A stretch of DNA of 37,475 nucleotides, from positions 84,653 through 122,127 of the IMG/VR virus record IMGVR_UViG_3300026512_000004. The stretch is one strand, 5' to 3'. This DNA is from a virus. A program made the translations under genes and the position numbers. Below, one piece after another: positions 5,804 to 21,702 of this stretch. The notes under the pieces are model-generated. The model saw only the letters and a list, made by a program, of their open reading frames with translations. It searched no databases and was not told the origin of the DNA. The number at the start of each line of letters is the position of its first letter. Position 1 is the first letter of the stretch.

Positions 5804-5836
5804 AAGTCGCAAACCTCCTTTTCAAAATTTAAGCCT

Positions 5837-5883
5837 AAAAACGTACCCGACCAGGCAGTCACGAAGACCACCTAGTCGGGTAC
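5837..5883 (-). terminator. Intrinsic terminator after the major capsid gene
   Basis: Read on the minus strand, GTACCCGACTAGG (5883-5871) pairs with CCTGGTCGGGTAC (5855-5843), 13 pairs with one G-U wobble, around a 15-nt loop with a small inner GTC/GAC stem, followed at once by five T (5841-5837). It begins 10 nt after the capsid stop codon. This would end the head operon and isolate high capsid expression from the next genes. Confidence 0.9.
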
Positions 5884-5893
5884 TAAAACTAGA

Positions 5894-8276: not shown

Positions 8277-8584
8277 TGTTTTTGCTCAGTTTGTAACTTG
8301 GCAACTAGATTCTGTAACAACTGTCCAACAACATCGTAAAAATCCTTACCCTGGAACAACGTATGCAACTTGATAAACATCTCTAGCATATCTGTGTTAT
8401 CGTCTTCAACACCACTACCCTTTAGCTGGTACAAAATGTCAATTAATTTGTTCAAAACGAAAAATCTGTTAAGTGTATCAAGAGGAGTTTCCTGTGGCGC
8501 AGTTTGTTGCCCTTCACCAGGTAAACTCTGTTCAAAAATGACGAGCATGTTATCAATATCGTAATCAAAGTAATCAACCGACAT
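8273..8584 (-). CDS. Small acidic protein between portal and protease, possible core protein
   Basis: A 103-residue acidic, helical protein (YFDYDIDNMLVIFEQSLPG, then RFFVLNKLIDILYQLKG and VVGQLLQNLVAKLQTEQ). It lies exactly between portal and protease, the slot occupied in T4 by the small prohead core proteins gp67 and gp68. I see no direct sequence match, so core function is inferred from position, size and charge. A GGGGG SD precedes the ATG by about six bases. The stop overlaps the protease start, implying coupled expression. Confidence 0.6.
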   Translation of the reverse strand: MSVDYFDYDIDNMLVIFEQSLPGEGQQTAPQETPLDTLNRFFVLNKLIDILYQLKGSGVEDDNTDMLEMFIKLHTLFQGKDFYDVVGQLLQNLVAKLQTEQKQ

Positions 8585-15771: not shown

Positions 15772-18700
15772 CTAAGAAACAATATATGTCAAACTGCGTT
15801 GTACAAAGAGATTAGGATAAGTCTCAAGAAGTTCTCGGTCAAATTCGCTTAATTGTTCTTGTTCTGGTGCAATAGAGCTTGTGAGCGTGTTAGCTGTTGG
15901 TGGTAAAGGTGGTAAGATTTGTTCATTACGACGAACATCTTGTTCAAAACGACGATGTACAACACGTTCAACACGTGTAGCAGTAGTATCTAGTTCAACA
16001 GGTCTACGAACTGTTACTCTATATTCTTGTACAGGTACATCTGGCAACACTTTTTCCCAATTATGGACACGATCATAACGCTTACGAAGACGTATTGCAG
16101 CTTGAATAACACCAAAAGGAACACCTCTTAGACCACCGTATTGTTCATAGGCTGATTGAAGAATCTTTTGTGCCTCTTTAGACTTAGTGAGATAGATTTT
16201 TAAAACATCTTCGGGAATACCATAACGTTCTGCAATAGGAGATGCATGACGTAAGGCAATTGCAAGTATGTTCTCTGCACGCTGTTGTTCTCTGTGATGT
16301 GCAATTACACGTGCGTGCCATGCGTCAAGTGGTTCTTCAGGTTTACGTTTAAATACGCTGTTGTCTATGCTATGATAAGCTTGTTCTGCGCGTGTTAGCC
16401 ACCCATGTAAGTACTTTTTGGCACCGCGACGTACTTTAGCAATATACTCATAACGAGAAACACGGAGGTTGTGCAGATGCGTTAGAAATTTGCCCTCAAG
16501 ACCACGTTCACGTACTACTTGAAGACCTTCTTTTATATTCTCCTTTTTGACACCTAAAACGCCTAACGCTTTAGCAACTAAACGTTTAGCAGTAGGTATA
16601 CCCATATTGACAGCGGTGTCAAAGATATAAAGTCTGATACGAGAATTCGGTACTTTATCTAAGGATAGAGGCTTCCAAAACTTTTCATAGTAAAAACGTG
16701 GAACTAAAGAAGCGGCAGTTTTGAAATCATGTTTGTCAACAAACCGCCACCCTTCCCAATCAGGGTAACTACGACGTGAAATTCCCATAAAAGTCATACC
16801 ACCTGGATCATCAGAATCTGCAGATAGAAGTCCCTCTTTACTTATGACAAAAGAAAACGCTTTAGCAAAATCGGAACCATAATTGGACGCATTGTTCTGA
16901 GCAACTTCAACAATACCACTGACATCCTGACGTTTCAAATCGTGTGCAATAAGTGCTGCGTCTAAACCAATAGACGCAACAGTACCATAACCGGGAACTG
17001 TAGAAGCTAATCCAGAACCAAACTCCAATGCAGCACCCGAAAAATCACCGCTCAATAGCCGTTTTGCCGCAAAAATAGTGCCTGCTATGGCACTTAAAAT
17101 AGGTATTTTCTTAGCTAAAGACTTTAATCCTACTTTCGGTAAGTATTTGGCACCTTTCTCTAAAAGTTCGTCCAGACCAATTTTTGATAGAAGTTTGCGT
17201 CCTTTCTGTAACGCAGACTTAGCAAAATCGATAACACCACTGGGTTTGACAGATACTTTCGGTTTCTTTAAGAAATCTGGGACTTTAAATATTTTACCAA
17301 TAAATCCACCTAACTTACTAAAAACTTTGCCCAAAAGACCAGCAATCTGACTTGCAACTGCACCAGCAAAGAAAGAAAAAGCACCTTTAAACATGCCACC
17401 AAACTTGTCAGCTATAGAGGTAATTAAGTTTTTAACTTCTTTAGGTTTCTGACGTGCTTGTCTTTTCACTAAGGAGTTAAGTTTATCGAGTTCATCAACA
17501 ACACGTTCTAAAAGAGATAACTGTCTTTCACGATATTCTTCTGTCTTCTTTTCACGCTCCTCTTTTCGTTCTTCCTCAAGACGTGATAATAACGCTTGTT
17601 TGGCGCGACTAGTAACACGCTGTACAGTTAAAAGTGGTGCACGAGTATGTTGGAAAAGAGATAACGGGATTTCTTGTTGATGTGAAAGAGTGGAGTAAGC
17701 GAGTTGACTGATAAAAGTTTCGTTTATTTTAGGCCGACCACTAAAGAAACTGGTTAATTGACCTAACGGAGATGACCGAAATGCTTTCTGAAGTATGTTG
17801 TATAAACGTTCTTTCCTTTGCTGATAAACTTGTTGTACTTCTTTTTGTGTCAAGTAACGACCTGTCAGAGGATCCCAAACTAAGGATTTCTTCTCAACGA
17901 CACGTTCGTATCTTTCGCGTATACGTTCTCTTCTTTCGCGTAATCCTCTGTTTTTTAGCAAAAAATCAGCGACTTCTCCTGTTGACTCCGCTATCTCCTC
18001 AAGAAGTCCTACTTTACGATACTCTAACTGAACGATTTCCTGCATTATTTGAGGATAATACTTACCAAGAAAAGTAAACGCAGATTCGCGTACTTTTTCT
18101 TGTGTTAGCGCTAACCCTGCTTTCTCAAGAAGTAACTTCCGATCCTTAACAAGTACGGAAAACTCACCAAAAAGTTTATCGCGTAACTTGACCAGTCCCT
18201 CTCTAAGTATGTCACCTGTTCTGGGAATAGCTTGGATAGCTCTATGGATAGTTCTGACACCTTTTACCGCAACAGTAGCAACGTTAACTAAGGCAGACAA
18301 ACCAGGAATACTATCTATGATACTCTGAATACCACTTAACAGTCTGCCTAAAATAGATTTGCGTTCTTCAGGCTGATAAGCAATAGTGGAACGAAGACCA
18401 AACCCATAACGGCGTATAGATGTTAATTCTGCTAAAATAAAGCGCTGTAAATCGTAAGAAGCTGTGAGTAAAGTCAGCTGTTTTGCTGCATCAGGTACAG
18501 ATGCAACCAACTGAGGTCCAGACGTAGACATTAATCTAAATTGACTATAGGAAACACCTAGAGCAAGACGACGTTTTTCAAGTTCTTTCCTATCTTCACC
18601 ACGTATCTGACGGAGAATTTCTAAAGTTCTACGAGGTGTTCTACCAGTGAGAAGAAACGTCATTAATTGAGAAAAAGGATCAAATTTATTGATTAGTTCA

Positions 18701-19710
18701 GATAACTTAAACTGAATATTGTCAAAAACATCGTGTATCTTCTCATAAGTATCTTCAGATTTGTAGAAACCTTGTTTGTAATCGTAAGTAGTAGCCTTGT
18801 ATTTGTGATGCCACTCTTGATACCAGGCGGGAATAATACACGTATGACGCTCTATAGCCTTGAGCAATTCTAGTTGTATCTGGTCACCAATAGAAAGTTG
18901 ACCCTGTGAAGTTGCTTGTTGTATATACGGATCTAATTTGTTAGCTATAGAATAACGTGACACATCTACAGAATCTTGACCACGTAGTTTGGCAATCCTA
19001 CGTGCTTTCCAGATAGAAAGACCCATCTGCATAGCCATTATAGGTAACATAAAACCTAAGCTACTAGACATAAACGGACCAACATGAGGAATACGTGCAA
19101 TACCGCCTAAAAGACCCTTCCAGGCGCCACCAAGACCAACCATATTTAGAGCGTTGTTGAACAAAGACATCATAGGATTACCAATCCCAGCCATCCAAAT
19201 ACTGTGAGGACGATGAACACCAAACGTAGTTAAAAGATTGCCAATTGTGTGATGTCCTGTCGCCCTAAGTAAACCACCTAAGACCTGAGCTTGAAAAAAC
19301 GGTCCGCGCACCAAATAATCAAGTAAACTCACAGTATTCATGTATTTCTCAATAACACCTGGAGCACCCATCTGAGCCAATTCCTGACGCTGATAGATAG
19401 GCTTAAAAGTGCGGCGAACATTAGAGAACCCTTTAAGCACAAGATAAGGAGCAACAATAGAAGCGCCTAAAGCAGCCTCTTTGGTAGCATCTTGTGCAGA
19501 TTTAAGCATCGCCTCACCAAACCCACGCATATAACGAGCACCCATAGTTACCCAAGTGAATCCAGGAATACGGCGAGCAACAGCTGCATAACGACGCATA
19601 TATGTTTCATAAGCTTGTCTGGCTTCTTGTTGAGCAGCTACTCGTTCACCAGGAGTTAACGATTGTAAATATGTCATATTGCGGAGTTGTTGATATTGCT
19701 GAGGAAGCAT
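15772..19710 (-). CDS. Tape-measure-like tail protein with embedded GH108 muramidase domain
   Basis: The largest gene here, 1312 residues. The N-terminal 250 residues hold several hydrophobic Gly/Ala segments (LGGAWKGLLGGIARIPHVG). The middle is charged coiled coil (RREREREREER-like stretches at about 590-630 and 710-750), then hydrophobic Gly-rich repeats (GAFSFFAGAVASQIAGLLG). Residues about 948-1130 form a GH108 lysozyme domain: SKEGLLSADSDDPGGMTFMG with E959 in the catalytic position, YYEKFWKPLSLDKVP, IFDTAVNMGI, and RGAKKYLHGWLTRAEQ, matching the endolysin at 2038-2556 block by block. A tape measure with a lytic domain would both set tail length and open peptidoglycan during infection. 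An ejected internal protein is the alternative. Confidence 0.75.
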   Translation of the reverse strand: MLPQQYQQLRNMTYLQSLTPGERVAAQQEARQAYETYMRRYAAVARRIPGFTWVTMGARYMRGFGEAMLKSAQDATKEAALGASIVAPYLVLKGFSNVRRTFKPIYQRQELAQMGAPGVIEKYMNTVSLLDYLVRGPFFQAQVLGGLLRATGHHTIGNLLTTFGVHRPHSIWMAGIGNPMMSLFNNALNMVGLGGAWKGLLGGIARIPHVGPFMSSSLGFMLPIMAMQMGLSIWKARRIAKLRGQDSVDVSRYSIANKLDPYIQQATSQGQLSIGDQIQLELLKAIERHTCIIPAWYQEWHHKYKATTYDYKQGFYKSEDTYEKIHDVFDNIQFKLSELINKFDPFSQLMTFLLTGRTPRRTLEILRQIRGEDRKELEKRRLALGVSYSQFRLMSTSGPQLVASVPDAAKQLTLLTASYDLQRFILAELTSIRRYGFGLRSTIAYQPEERKSILGRLLSGIQSIIDSIPGLSALVNVATVAVKGVRTIHRAIQAIPRTGDILREGLVKLRDKLFGEFSVLVKDRKLLLEKAGLALTQEKVRESAFTFLGKYYPQIMQEIVQLEYRKVGLLEEIAESTGEVADFLLKNRGLRERRERIRERYERVVEKKSLVWDPLTGRYLTQKEVQQVYQQRKERLYNILQKAFRSSPLGQLTSFFSGRPKINETFISQLAYSTLSHQQEIPLSLFQHTRAPLLTVQRVTSRAKQALLSRLEEERKEEREKKTEEYRERQLSLLERVVDELDKLNSLVKRQARQKPKEVKNLITSIADKFGGMFKGAFSFFAGAVASQIAGLLGKVFSKLGGFIGKIFKVPDFLKKPKVSVKPSGVIDFAKSALQKGRKLLSKIGLDELLEKGAKYLPKVGLKSLAKKIPILSAIAGTIFAAKRLLSGDFSGAALEFGSGLASTVPGYGTVASIGLDAALIAHDLKRQDVSGIVEVAQNNASNYGSDFAKAFSFVISKEGLLSADSDDPGGMTFMGISRRSYPDWEGWRFVDKHDFKTAASLVPRFYYEKFWKPLSLDKVPNSRIRLYIFDTAVNMGIPTAKRLVAKALGVLGVKKENIKEGLQVVRERGLEGKFLTHLHNLRVSRYEYIAKVRRGAKKYLHGWLTRAEQAYHSIDNSVFKRKPEEPLDAWHARVIAHHREQQRAENILAIALRHASPIAERYGIPEDVLKIYLTKSKEAQKILQSAYEQYGGLRGVPFGVIQAAIRLRKRYDRVHNWEKVLPDVPVQEYRVTVRRPVELDTTATRVERVVHRRFEQDVRRNEQILPPLPPTANTLTSSIAPEQEQLSEFDRELLETYPNLFVQRSLTYIVS

Positions 19711-19713
19711 TGG

Positions 19714-20451
19714 TTACGTTACAATTATATAGCGCAAGTCTTGTTCATCATCAACATCATAAATAATCTCAGGTAAATCATGTAAATGTTGTTCACCAGT
19801 TTTTGGCTTATCTTTTACAACAACAGGTGTTCTAGATAACGTTTCAGCTAACTGGTTGGAAACGGTTACATCTACTACACTTATTAACTTACTATACCAC
19901 ATCTTACGAGCATATGCACAAAAACACGCTGCCATAAACAAGTCGGATTTATATCCTTTTGGTATTTCAATATTGCCCTGATTATTACGACGAGCATTAA
20001 GCAACTGATTTTTCAAGTCTTGAGAACGTATAATAGACGGGTTGTCACAAACGTGTTGGTAAAAGAGACTAGTCATAATGCCCTTTGTTTGACCGGTAGT
20101 TTGAACTCCATAGATACGTTCACCACGTTTCTCTTCGTAGTAAAGAAGAGGTTCAAATTCGGGGTCATCTTGAAACGACTCTACGACAGCTTGACCTATA
20201 GAATTACGCTCTATAGCTATTACAATATTGTCTCCAACTTGACTTCTTAGCCAAGAAACAGCATTCTTAGCAAGTTCTGCAAACTTGTGTAAAGATCCAA
20301 TACGTCCAAAAGCTTCTGCTACTTGTTTAAATTCACGGAAAGTAAACACTTCTATGGCACAAAGCGCACCGTTGACAGAAGCAGCTGTGTCAATACCGAC
20401 GATATAATAGTCAGTAGGATCAAAACTATCCTCAAAAACAGCTAAGCGCAT
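19714..20451 (-). CDS. Terminase large subunit, nuclease half
   Basis: A 245-residue protein that is the C-terminal RNase H-like nuclease domain of a terminase large subunit. Expected acidic residues are present: D21 in YYIVGIDTAAS, E81 in NIVIAIERNSIGQ, and D170 in GYKSDLFMAACF. It opens with RLAVFEDSFDPTDYYIVGID, which is the usual linker-to-nuclease transition rather than a natural protein start. The ATG at 20451 has no SD within 15 bases. It is in the same reading frame as the ATPase half upstream, 264 nt past that stop codon, and would cut concatemeric DNA during packaging if it associates with, or is spliced to, the ATPase half. Confidence 0.88.
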   Translation of the reverse strand: MRLAVFEDSFDPTDYYIVGIDTAASVNGALCAIEVFTFREFKQVAEAFGRIGSLHKFAELAKNAVSWLRSQVGDNIVIAIERNSIGQAVVESFQDDPEFEPLLYYEEKRGERIYGVQTTGQTKGIMTSLFYQHVCDNPSIIRSQDLKNQLLNARRNNQGNIEIPKGYKSDLFMAACFCAYARKMWYSKLISVVDVTVSNQLAETLSRTPVVVKDKPKTGEQHLHDLPEIIYDVDDEQDLRYIIVT

Positions 20452-20477
20452 ACTATAGATATTTGTATCTAAATAAC

Positions 20478-20638
20478 ATCCCTGCGGCCCTCAAGACTGG
20501 TGGCCCGGCACCGGTCTGACCTGGAAAACCGGGATTCCAGGTCAAGAGGGTTACCCGTTACCACACCAACTATCTAAACACGTAGGGCGGTTGTAAAAAT
20601 CGTGTGGTAACGGGGGACGCAGGGATCTTTTTGTTTTT
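20478..20638. ncRNA. Structured RNA-like element between the two terminase halves
   Basis: This GC-rich stretch (85 of 149 bases G or C by hand count over 20478-20626) lies in AT-rich surroundings. Stems in plus coordinates are: P1 20478-20486 with 20618-20626 (9 bp, closing everything), P2 20554-20566 with 20602-20614 (13 bp perfect), P3 20488-20492 with 20546-20550, P4 20517-20526 with 20535-20544 (10 bp), P5 20495-20502 with 20509-20516. The loops of P4 (CCGGG 20529-20533) and P5 (CCCGG 20504-20508) can kiss. Read as plus-strand RNA, P5 has a G-U pair that is a C-A mismatch on the minus strand, and TTTTTGTTTTT follows P1 at 20628-20638 like a terminator; both favour a plus-strand transcript. 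As minus-strand RNA it would be part of the terminase mRNA. The rest of the gap (20639-20715) is AT-rich with seven in-frame stops across the whole interval. Confidence 0.65.
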
Positions 20639-20715
20639 ATAATCTGATGCTACTATAATTTCTTTTCGAAAAATATCGGTACAGAAATCGACCCAAACTA
20701 GTTAACTCTTTTTCG

Positions 20716-21702
20716 CTACGTTTCAACTTCACTCAAATTCACATAAAACTTCGGACTTTCGGGTTTTATTGCTTTCAAAACATCATCAGGAAATACACAC
20801 TCAGTAGACGCTCTAAACTCTAAATCTAACTCCTGAGCAATAGCACGCTCGTCCCAGTTTAACTCACGACACTGTTCTAAATACCACTGTTCGTCTTTCT
20901 CAGGATCTTCAGACCAATGATATTTAATGCGGATAAAACCATTCTTCAACTCAGAAGAAACAGCCTCCTGATACGCTTGCATGTAGTCAGGGCGTAATAA
21001 ATCACTATCACCTGCAAATACGTAAGAATCGTCAATTGCATTTTCCCACATCTGATAAAACCACTTACCAGTACCTTCTACACCATTAGGCGTTGAAGAC
21101 AAGAGAATAAAATAAGGATAGTTGTAATGTTTAGCTTGTTCTCTGGCACGAGAAAGTGCAGGTTGCGCCGCAGTATAAGCTTCATGAATTCCACGAATAA
21201 AAGCAGCCTCATCTATATAAAGAACAGTACCAGTTAAACCACGTGCTAATTGTTCAGGCGGTGTATTAGAAGAAGGGTAAAAAATGGAGAGACGTGATCC
21301 ATGAGCAAAATCAATATAGTGTTTGATGTTAGGGTCGGATTTTAGAGGTATCTTTAACCACGGCGGTAAGTGATTATAGGCAAATTTAACCTTCTCTATG
21401 TTGTCGTATGCAGTTGACTTACGGTAATTAATAATAACAGCAAGAGTACCAGGATAGAAAAGACATGCCCATAAGAGTAAACCCGCCGCTATAGTAGATT
21501 TGCCCAATTGACGTGAAGCCATTAGAATAACACGGTGAAAAATAAGACATGCTCGTACTGTTCGTCTAAGCTTAGTATGCATTAGAGACAAATCATAACG
21601 TCGTGGATGATAAAGTTCACTAAAGTGAAAGTAGTTGTTTATAAAGTAGAAAGGCGATTTGCGACACTTATACCACTCAAGAAGAATTTGCTTTTTGTCC
21701 AT
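20716..21702 (-). CDS. Terminase large subunit, ATPase half
   Basis: A 328-residue packaging ATPase. Walker A SRQLGKST is at residues 63-70 (T4 gp17 has a nearly identical SRQLGKTT), Walker B VLYIDEAAF at 160-168 with D164 and E165, and coupling motif SSTPNG at 202-207. The end of the domain (FRASTECVFPDDVLKAI) is typical of the point where the motor passes to the linker, and the ORF stops 18 residues later at TAG (20718-20716). It lacks any nuclease domain, which is encoded separately by 19714-20451. It would hydrolyse ATP to drive DNA through the portal. No small terminase was identified in this window. Confidence 0.92.
   Translation of the reverse strand: MDKKQILLEWYKCRKSPFYFINNYFHFSELYHPRRYDLSLMHTKLRRTVRACLIFHRVILMASRQLGKSTIAAGLLLWACLFYPGTLAVIINYRKSTAYDNIEKVKFAYNHLPPWLKIPLKSDPNIKHYIDFAHGSRLSIFYPSSNTPPEQLARGLTGTVLYIDEAAFIRGIHEAYTAAQPALSRAREQAKHYNYPYFILLSSTPNGVEGTGKWFYQMWENAIDDSYVFAGDSDLLRPDYMQAYQEAVSSELKNGFIRIKYHWSEDPEKDEQWYLEQCRELNWDERAIAQELDLEFRASTECVFPDDVLKAIKPESPKFYVNLSEVET

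Follow-up and report, generated by a model that had tools for sequence, protein, structure and literature searches.

Activity is documented for two split phage enzymes, those of nrdA in Aeh1 and of gene 43A/43B in phage 25, and the 43A and 43B halves of phage 25 co-purify and have activity (PMC2988022). In the 44RR record, the gap within gene 43 is 49 nt long and contains one hairpin and a GAGGA sequence before the second ATG. A six-copy intergenic repeat is also annotated in this record (L133:8053-8164). Introns are known in phage terL, namely in ICP1 and in SIOphi and phiAGATE (PMC10448857, PMC11878797). The ATPase and nuclease domains of T4 gp17 keep their own activities when they are separated, but lose DNA translocation (PMC9958956).

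The window analysed here is the whole stretch of 37,475 nucleotides that corresponds to positions 84653-122127 of a virus record of 122,127 bp, which is a single metagenome-derived record. In this window, terL is in two pieces at the DNA level, an ATPase ORF and a nuclease ORF. The spacing from TAG to ATG is 267 nt (20452-20718), the two ORFs are in one frame, and the gap contains seven in-frame stops. The preliminary description had given the coordinates, strand, stop and start codons, gap length, common frame and number of stops, all of which are borne out, and the split of terL is confirmed as real. A frame common to both halves arises by chance in one case out of three and has little weight by itself. 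A second terL is absent elsewhere in the whole record. The features of the locus are listed in Table 1.

Table 1. Features of the split terL locus. Positions are those of the window.
Feature	Position	Strand	Remarks
terL ATPase ORF	20716-21702	minus	328 aa; stop codon TAG
terL nuclease ORF	19714-20451	minus	245 aa; ATG start, no Shine-Dalgarno sequence
Inferred inserted segment	20449-20721	none	about 273 nt, as compared with the family linker of 46 residues
TATAGATATTT promoter-like motif	20454-20464	+	13 nt before the fold
Predicted structured RNA	20478-20626	+	149 nt, 55 bp
P1 closing stem	20478-20486/20618-20626	+	9 bp
P2	20487-20492/20546-20551	+	predicted fold
Hairpin P2a	loop GCCCGG 20503-20508	+	predicted fold, 9 bp
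Hairpin P2b	loop AACCGGGA 20527-20534	+	predicted fold, 9 bp
P3	20554-20566/20602-20614	+	13-bp hairpin arm
U-tract TTTTTGTTTTT	20628-20638	+	terminator-like, directly after P1

The ATPase half matches Terminase_6N of Pfam (E 6.5e-14) and terL of PHROG (PHROG_2, 1e-29), and contains a Walker A motif (SRQLGKST), a Walker B motif (VLYIDEAAF) and a coupling motif (SSTPNG). Judged by its sequence, this half is a T4-type large terminase. The nuclease half gives a weak terminase match against PHROG (2.3e-4), and its catalytic D/E/D residues are found in VGIDTA, AIERN and DLFMA of an RNase H-like domain. When the two halves are aligned with the relatives, none of their catalytic residues varies. The AlphaFold2 model of the nuclease, for which seven aligned relatives were used as input, has a mean pLDDT of 76, with values of about 89-93 for the first 20 residues and a C-terminal tail that is disordered from about residue 190. 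Foldseek matches this model to the nuclease structures of T4 gp17 and RB49 gp17 (3cpe, 3c6h) with E values of 4e-8 to 1e-6. The nuclease ORF is thus predicted to encode a complete T4 gp17-like domain. Directly downstream of this ORF, the window encodes a 1312-aa protein (15772-19710, minus strand), whose matches are tape-measure-like and endolysin-like (PHROG 315). A very strong terminator-like hairpin, GTACCCGACTAGGTGGTC...GACTGCCTGGTCGGGTACGTTTTT, is located directly after the major capsid gene (5830-5890, minus strand).

The comparison set consists of viral contigs with the same TerL type as the window. In ten of them (L011, L012, L014-L019, L023 and L024) terL is continuous, and the junction between the domains is also unbroken in L020/L021 and L001. 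Measured between the F.D..L motif and the DT/SA motif of the nuclease, the linker is 46 residues long in L001, L011, L012, L020 and L023 and 45 residues long in L024. Because the junction is uninterrupted and nearly constant at 45-46 residues in the relatives for which it is complete, the break is derived in the window virus. The window halves, when joined, give a linker of 48 residues, indicating, by comparison with 45-46 residues in the relatives, that about 273 nt are extra in the window. The overall identity of these relatives to the window TerL is about 42% at most, and L020/L021 reach 55% identity over part of the ATPase. No nearer viruses were found when they were searched for with the capsid protein. 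The best placement of the insert runs from ACG, the codon before TAG, through ATG, so that SEVE is followed by RLAVF. With this placement, a single codon precedes TAG at one end of the insert, and ATG forms the final codon at the other. The TAGC direct repeats at the insert ends were rejected, because the frame would stay broken. In another contig (L008, phage LR756508), the second ORF after terL looks intein-bearing (CVSGDTRVLT ... VIVHNC).

Nowhere else in the 122-kb record is there a 150-nt fold as stable as that in the insert, or a 144-nt stretch as rich in GC. Most of the insert looks like a transcription unit on the strand opposite to terL, with a putative promoter, an RNA and a terminator. 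In the predicted fold of the RNA, P1 closes a three-way junction from which two arms extend; one is a 13-bp hairpin, and the other branches at its end into two neighbouring hairpins. Each of the 55 pairs is a standard one; four of them are G.U on the + strand, and the rest are Watson-Crick. The free energy is -83.0 kcal/mol on the + strand, where the MFE structure represents 28% of the ensemble, as compared with -74.6 kcal/mol and 1% (a fraction of 0.011) on the sense strand. Both the strand and the three-part reading were chosen with the data already in view, and the individual chance figures are descriptive: the z score of the + strand fold is -6.9, computed over a slightly larger interval; the P2a and P2b loops are complementary over five bases, with a chance of about 0.8% for such loops; six exact copies of TATAGATATTT occur in the genome, where 0.3 would be expected; and 13-mers with at least 10 T begin at about 0.06% of positions, the 13-mer after P1 having 11. 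The copies of TATAGATATTT are found only on the + strand, four of them between ORFs, and it is likely a promoter-type motif. The preliminary description had correctly seen a 267-nt gap with stops, but the RNA-gene-like content of its antisense strand was not visible there. A T4-late-promoter-like octamer before the RNA, TCTAAATA, was dropped, because it occurs everywhere in this AT-rich genome, and a retron-like reading was dropped, because the record contains no reverse transcriptase. Two structured leaders, 81% identical to each other, are located upstream of + strand genes elsewhere (L005:11371-11592 and L006:1791-2001). Both end in ACTAGTTYAAAGGAGGT, and the second, at 61.8 kb, is preceded by TATAGATATTT.

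Relatives of the RNA were searched for in several ways. The insert has no blastn match among phages and plasmids, and its hairpin pattern is not found in bacterial genomes. In viral contigs, this pattern matches L091 and L092, which were judged to be chance hairpins, and a 15-base piece of the insert matches 38 loci, which are coincidental. In 48 sources and 14 records, a covariance model based on this RNA alone detects no relative. Because no RNA homologue was found in these searches, no covariation backs the predicted fold.

The following sequence of events may account for this locus. A segment of about 273 bp would have been inserted into the sequence for the hinge that joins the TerL domains, breaking terL exactly there. 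Most of this segment would be a small unit on the opposite strand, in which a promoter-like motif is followed by a highly structured RNA, about 150-165 nt in length, and then by a terminator in the form of a U-tract. The minus-strand message is most likely left unspliced, so that translation of the ATPase domain would stop at TAG after a single codon of the insert, that of the nuclease would begin at ATG at the other end, and the two polypeptides would cooperate non-covalently. That the motor works as two polypeptides is the most likely explanation, and the full model, in which this two-polypeptide TerL is combined with the antisense RNA gene, has about the same chance of being right as of being wrong. 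We infer that the RNA is transcribed and has a role, that the nuclease is translated separately and that the halves re-associate. Two polypeptides are supported by the positions of the stop and start codons, each within one codon of the inferred insert boundaries, and by the nuclease model, which has a good fold right from the N-terminus. The catalytic residues that both halves retain, the absence of another terL, the empty site in six relatives, the lack of an Rfam intron match and the precedent of active split enzymes in phages also speak for it. In this genome some genes have a Shine-Dalgarno sequence and many, like the nuclease ORF, do not; these statistics leave undecided how the nuclease ORF starts. 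The requirement of T4 TerL for its hinge (PMC9958956) and the lack of a Shine-Dalgarno sequence before the nuclease ORF count against a two-polypeptide motor.

A second enzyme is also split in this genome. The family B DNA polymerase is encoded by two genes, of which the one for the C-terminal half (43560-44429; L005:3560-4429), containing YGDTDS, is located upstream of the one for the N-terminal half (44416-46359; L005:4416-6359) and overlaps its start. Because the order of the halves is permuted in this way, cis splicing cannot join them. In the relatives G002 and G011, the two halves are about 14 and 10 kb apart, respectively. We infer from gene order that one essential enzyme of this virus group is already produced as two parts, each encoded separately. 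A structured sequence, CTAGAAACTCC...GGAGTAGTTCAC, follows a GTP cyclohydrolase I gene (L005, about 8300-8350), and we take it to resemble an IS605-type right end. A search of the record for a TnpB domain found nothing.

A stop and a start in one frame do not make the insert an intron by default. The insert may nevertheless be a self-splicing intron that has degenerated or belongs to an unrecognised type, which leaves the minus-strand mRNA to give a one-piece TerL, and we consider this rather unlikely. Group I introns at other sites in sister terL genes give this explanation a real prior. One is present in L001 terL just before the Walker B region (L001:5411-5656, 111.8 bits), and another in L020/L021 terL after STPNG, with an HNH-like ORF inside (L020:4606-4908, 68.3 bits). 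These scores indicate that the Rfam search works on terL. The insert, which is compatible in size with a small group I intron, however gives no match to RF00028, the conserved P3-P9 group I core, or to group II models, even at E 10 with permissive filters, and the GUGYG...AY ends of group II introns are absent by inspection. The Rfam searches of the insert, at gathering thresholds and at E 10, and of the rest of the record, at gathering thresholds, give nothing usable. The Rfam search had been suggested by the preliminary description. A home-made P3/P7 descriptor finds no conserved P7-type pair in the insert, but it fails to pick out the control introns as well and is given no weight. The splice pair proposed earlier (after ACGT and after TTATTTAG) does not restore the family junction, because it leaves YTNIYS and a linker of 54 residues as compared with 45-46. 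A different group-I-like pair, GTT/GAA...ATG/CGC, keeps the frame, gives a 45-residue linker as in L024 and has a predicted U.G-closed P1 (GAAGUU.../GAUUUC). The need of T4 TerL for a covalent hinge (PMC9958956) also favours splicing, whereas the fold of the sense strand, weaker and less well defined than that of the antisense strand, argues against it.

It is unlikely that the GC-rich palindromic core of the insert is a small MITE-like mobile DNA element, whose resemblance to an RNA gene is incidental. Such an element is suggested by the perfect 9-bp terminal inverted repeat ATCCCTGCG/CGCAGGGAT, by a GC content far above that of the genome and by its presence in a single lineage. However, no further copy is found in the genome, in phages and plasmids or in the hairpin scans of viral and bacterial contigs, and no target-site duplication is seen. 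The placement of G.U on the + strand in every non-Watson-Crick pair also argues against it, and the U-tract and the promoter-like motif suit an RNA gene. Even if the insert is such an element, the two terL ORFs may still be made separately.

The insertion is quite unlikely to represent a defective genome or an assembly error, in which case it would be a minority or dead variant. The locus is known from one metagenome-derived record only, but the motifs are intact in both terL halves, neither of which shows additional lesions, and the insert bears TATAGATATTT, which is found elsewhere in the same genome and indicates that the insert belongs to the phage. Ribosome bypass over the 267 nt is very improbable: the stop that immediately follows a candidate take-off codon (ACG TAG), as in T4 gene 60, and the strong structure within the gap speak for it, but the gene 60 gap is much shorter (about 50 nt), and the second ORF has no ACG landing codon near it, only an ACA whose use would make the linker longer than is conserved. 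Among the three options of the preliminary description, two polypeptides are therefore favoured over an intron, which is unsupported, and over bypass, which lacks a matching landing codon.

A natural TerL that is cut at the hinge would reveal either coupling of the ATPase and the nuclease without a covalent link or a new route by which they are rejoined. What makes the split especially interesting is that it affects the gene of the packaging motor and is located in the hinge, and the locus is also an unusual case of an RNA gene apparently lodged antisense within an essential gene.

The window RNA resembles the pRNA of phi29, also a phage RNA, in its size, in its branching and in having hairpin loops that are complementary, but gives no meaningful Rfam match at E 10, and its binding to the motor is purely hypothetical. 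The packaging ATPase of phi29 is not T4-like. It is extremely improbable that the antisense RNA is a pRNA-like scaffold in the packaging machine, replacing the lost hinge and holding together a two-protein T4-type motor; with such a scaffold, the complementary hairpin loops would be able to kiss within or between molecules. The introns in terL of the same TerL clade (L001 and L020/L021) are likewise intervening sequences inside terL, but they match the group I model and are located in ATPase motifs, whereas the window insert gives no such match and is located in the linker. The nrdA gene of Aeh1, interrupted by insertion of mobE, is likewise an essential gene that is broken to give two polypeptides and an active enzyme (PMC2988022), but the Aeh1 insert is a homing endonuclease gene, whereas the window insert contains no substantial ORF. 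In Aeromonas phages 44RR and 25, gene 43A/43B likewise consists of two ORFs of an essential enzyme parted by an insert, which is an untranslated sequence (IC-UTS) in 44RR and another insertion in phage 25. The window differs from 44RR in that terL is the gene that is split, the gap, 267 nt in length, resembles an antisense RNA gene, and the second ORF has no Shine-Dalgarno sequence. It shares with genes of the 43A/43B type one ancestral gene, two ORFs, an untranslated insert and an empty site in relatives. The closest known kind is thus that of phage genes interrupted by an untranslated sequence, as represented by gene 43A/43B of 44RR.
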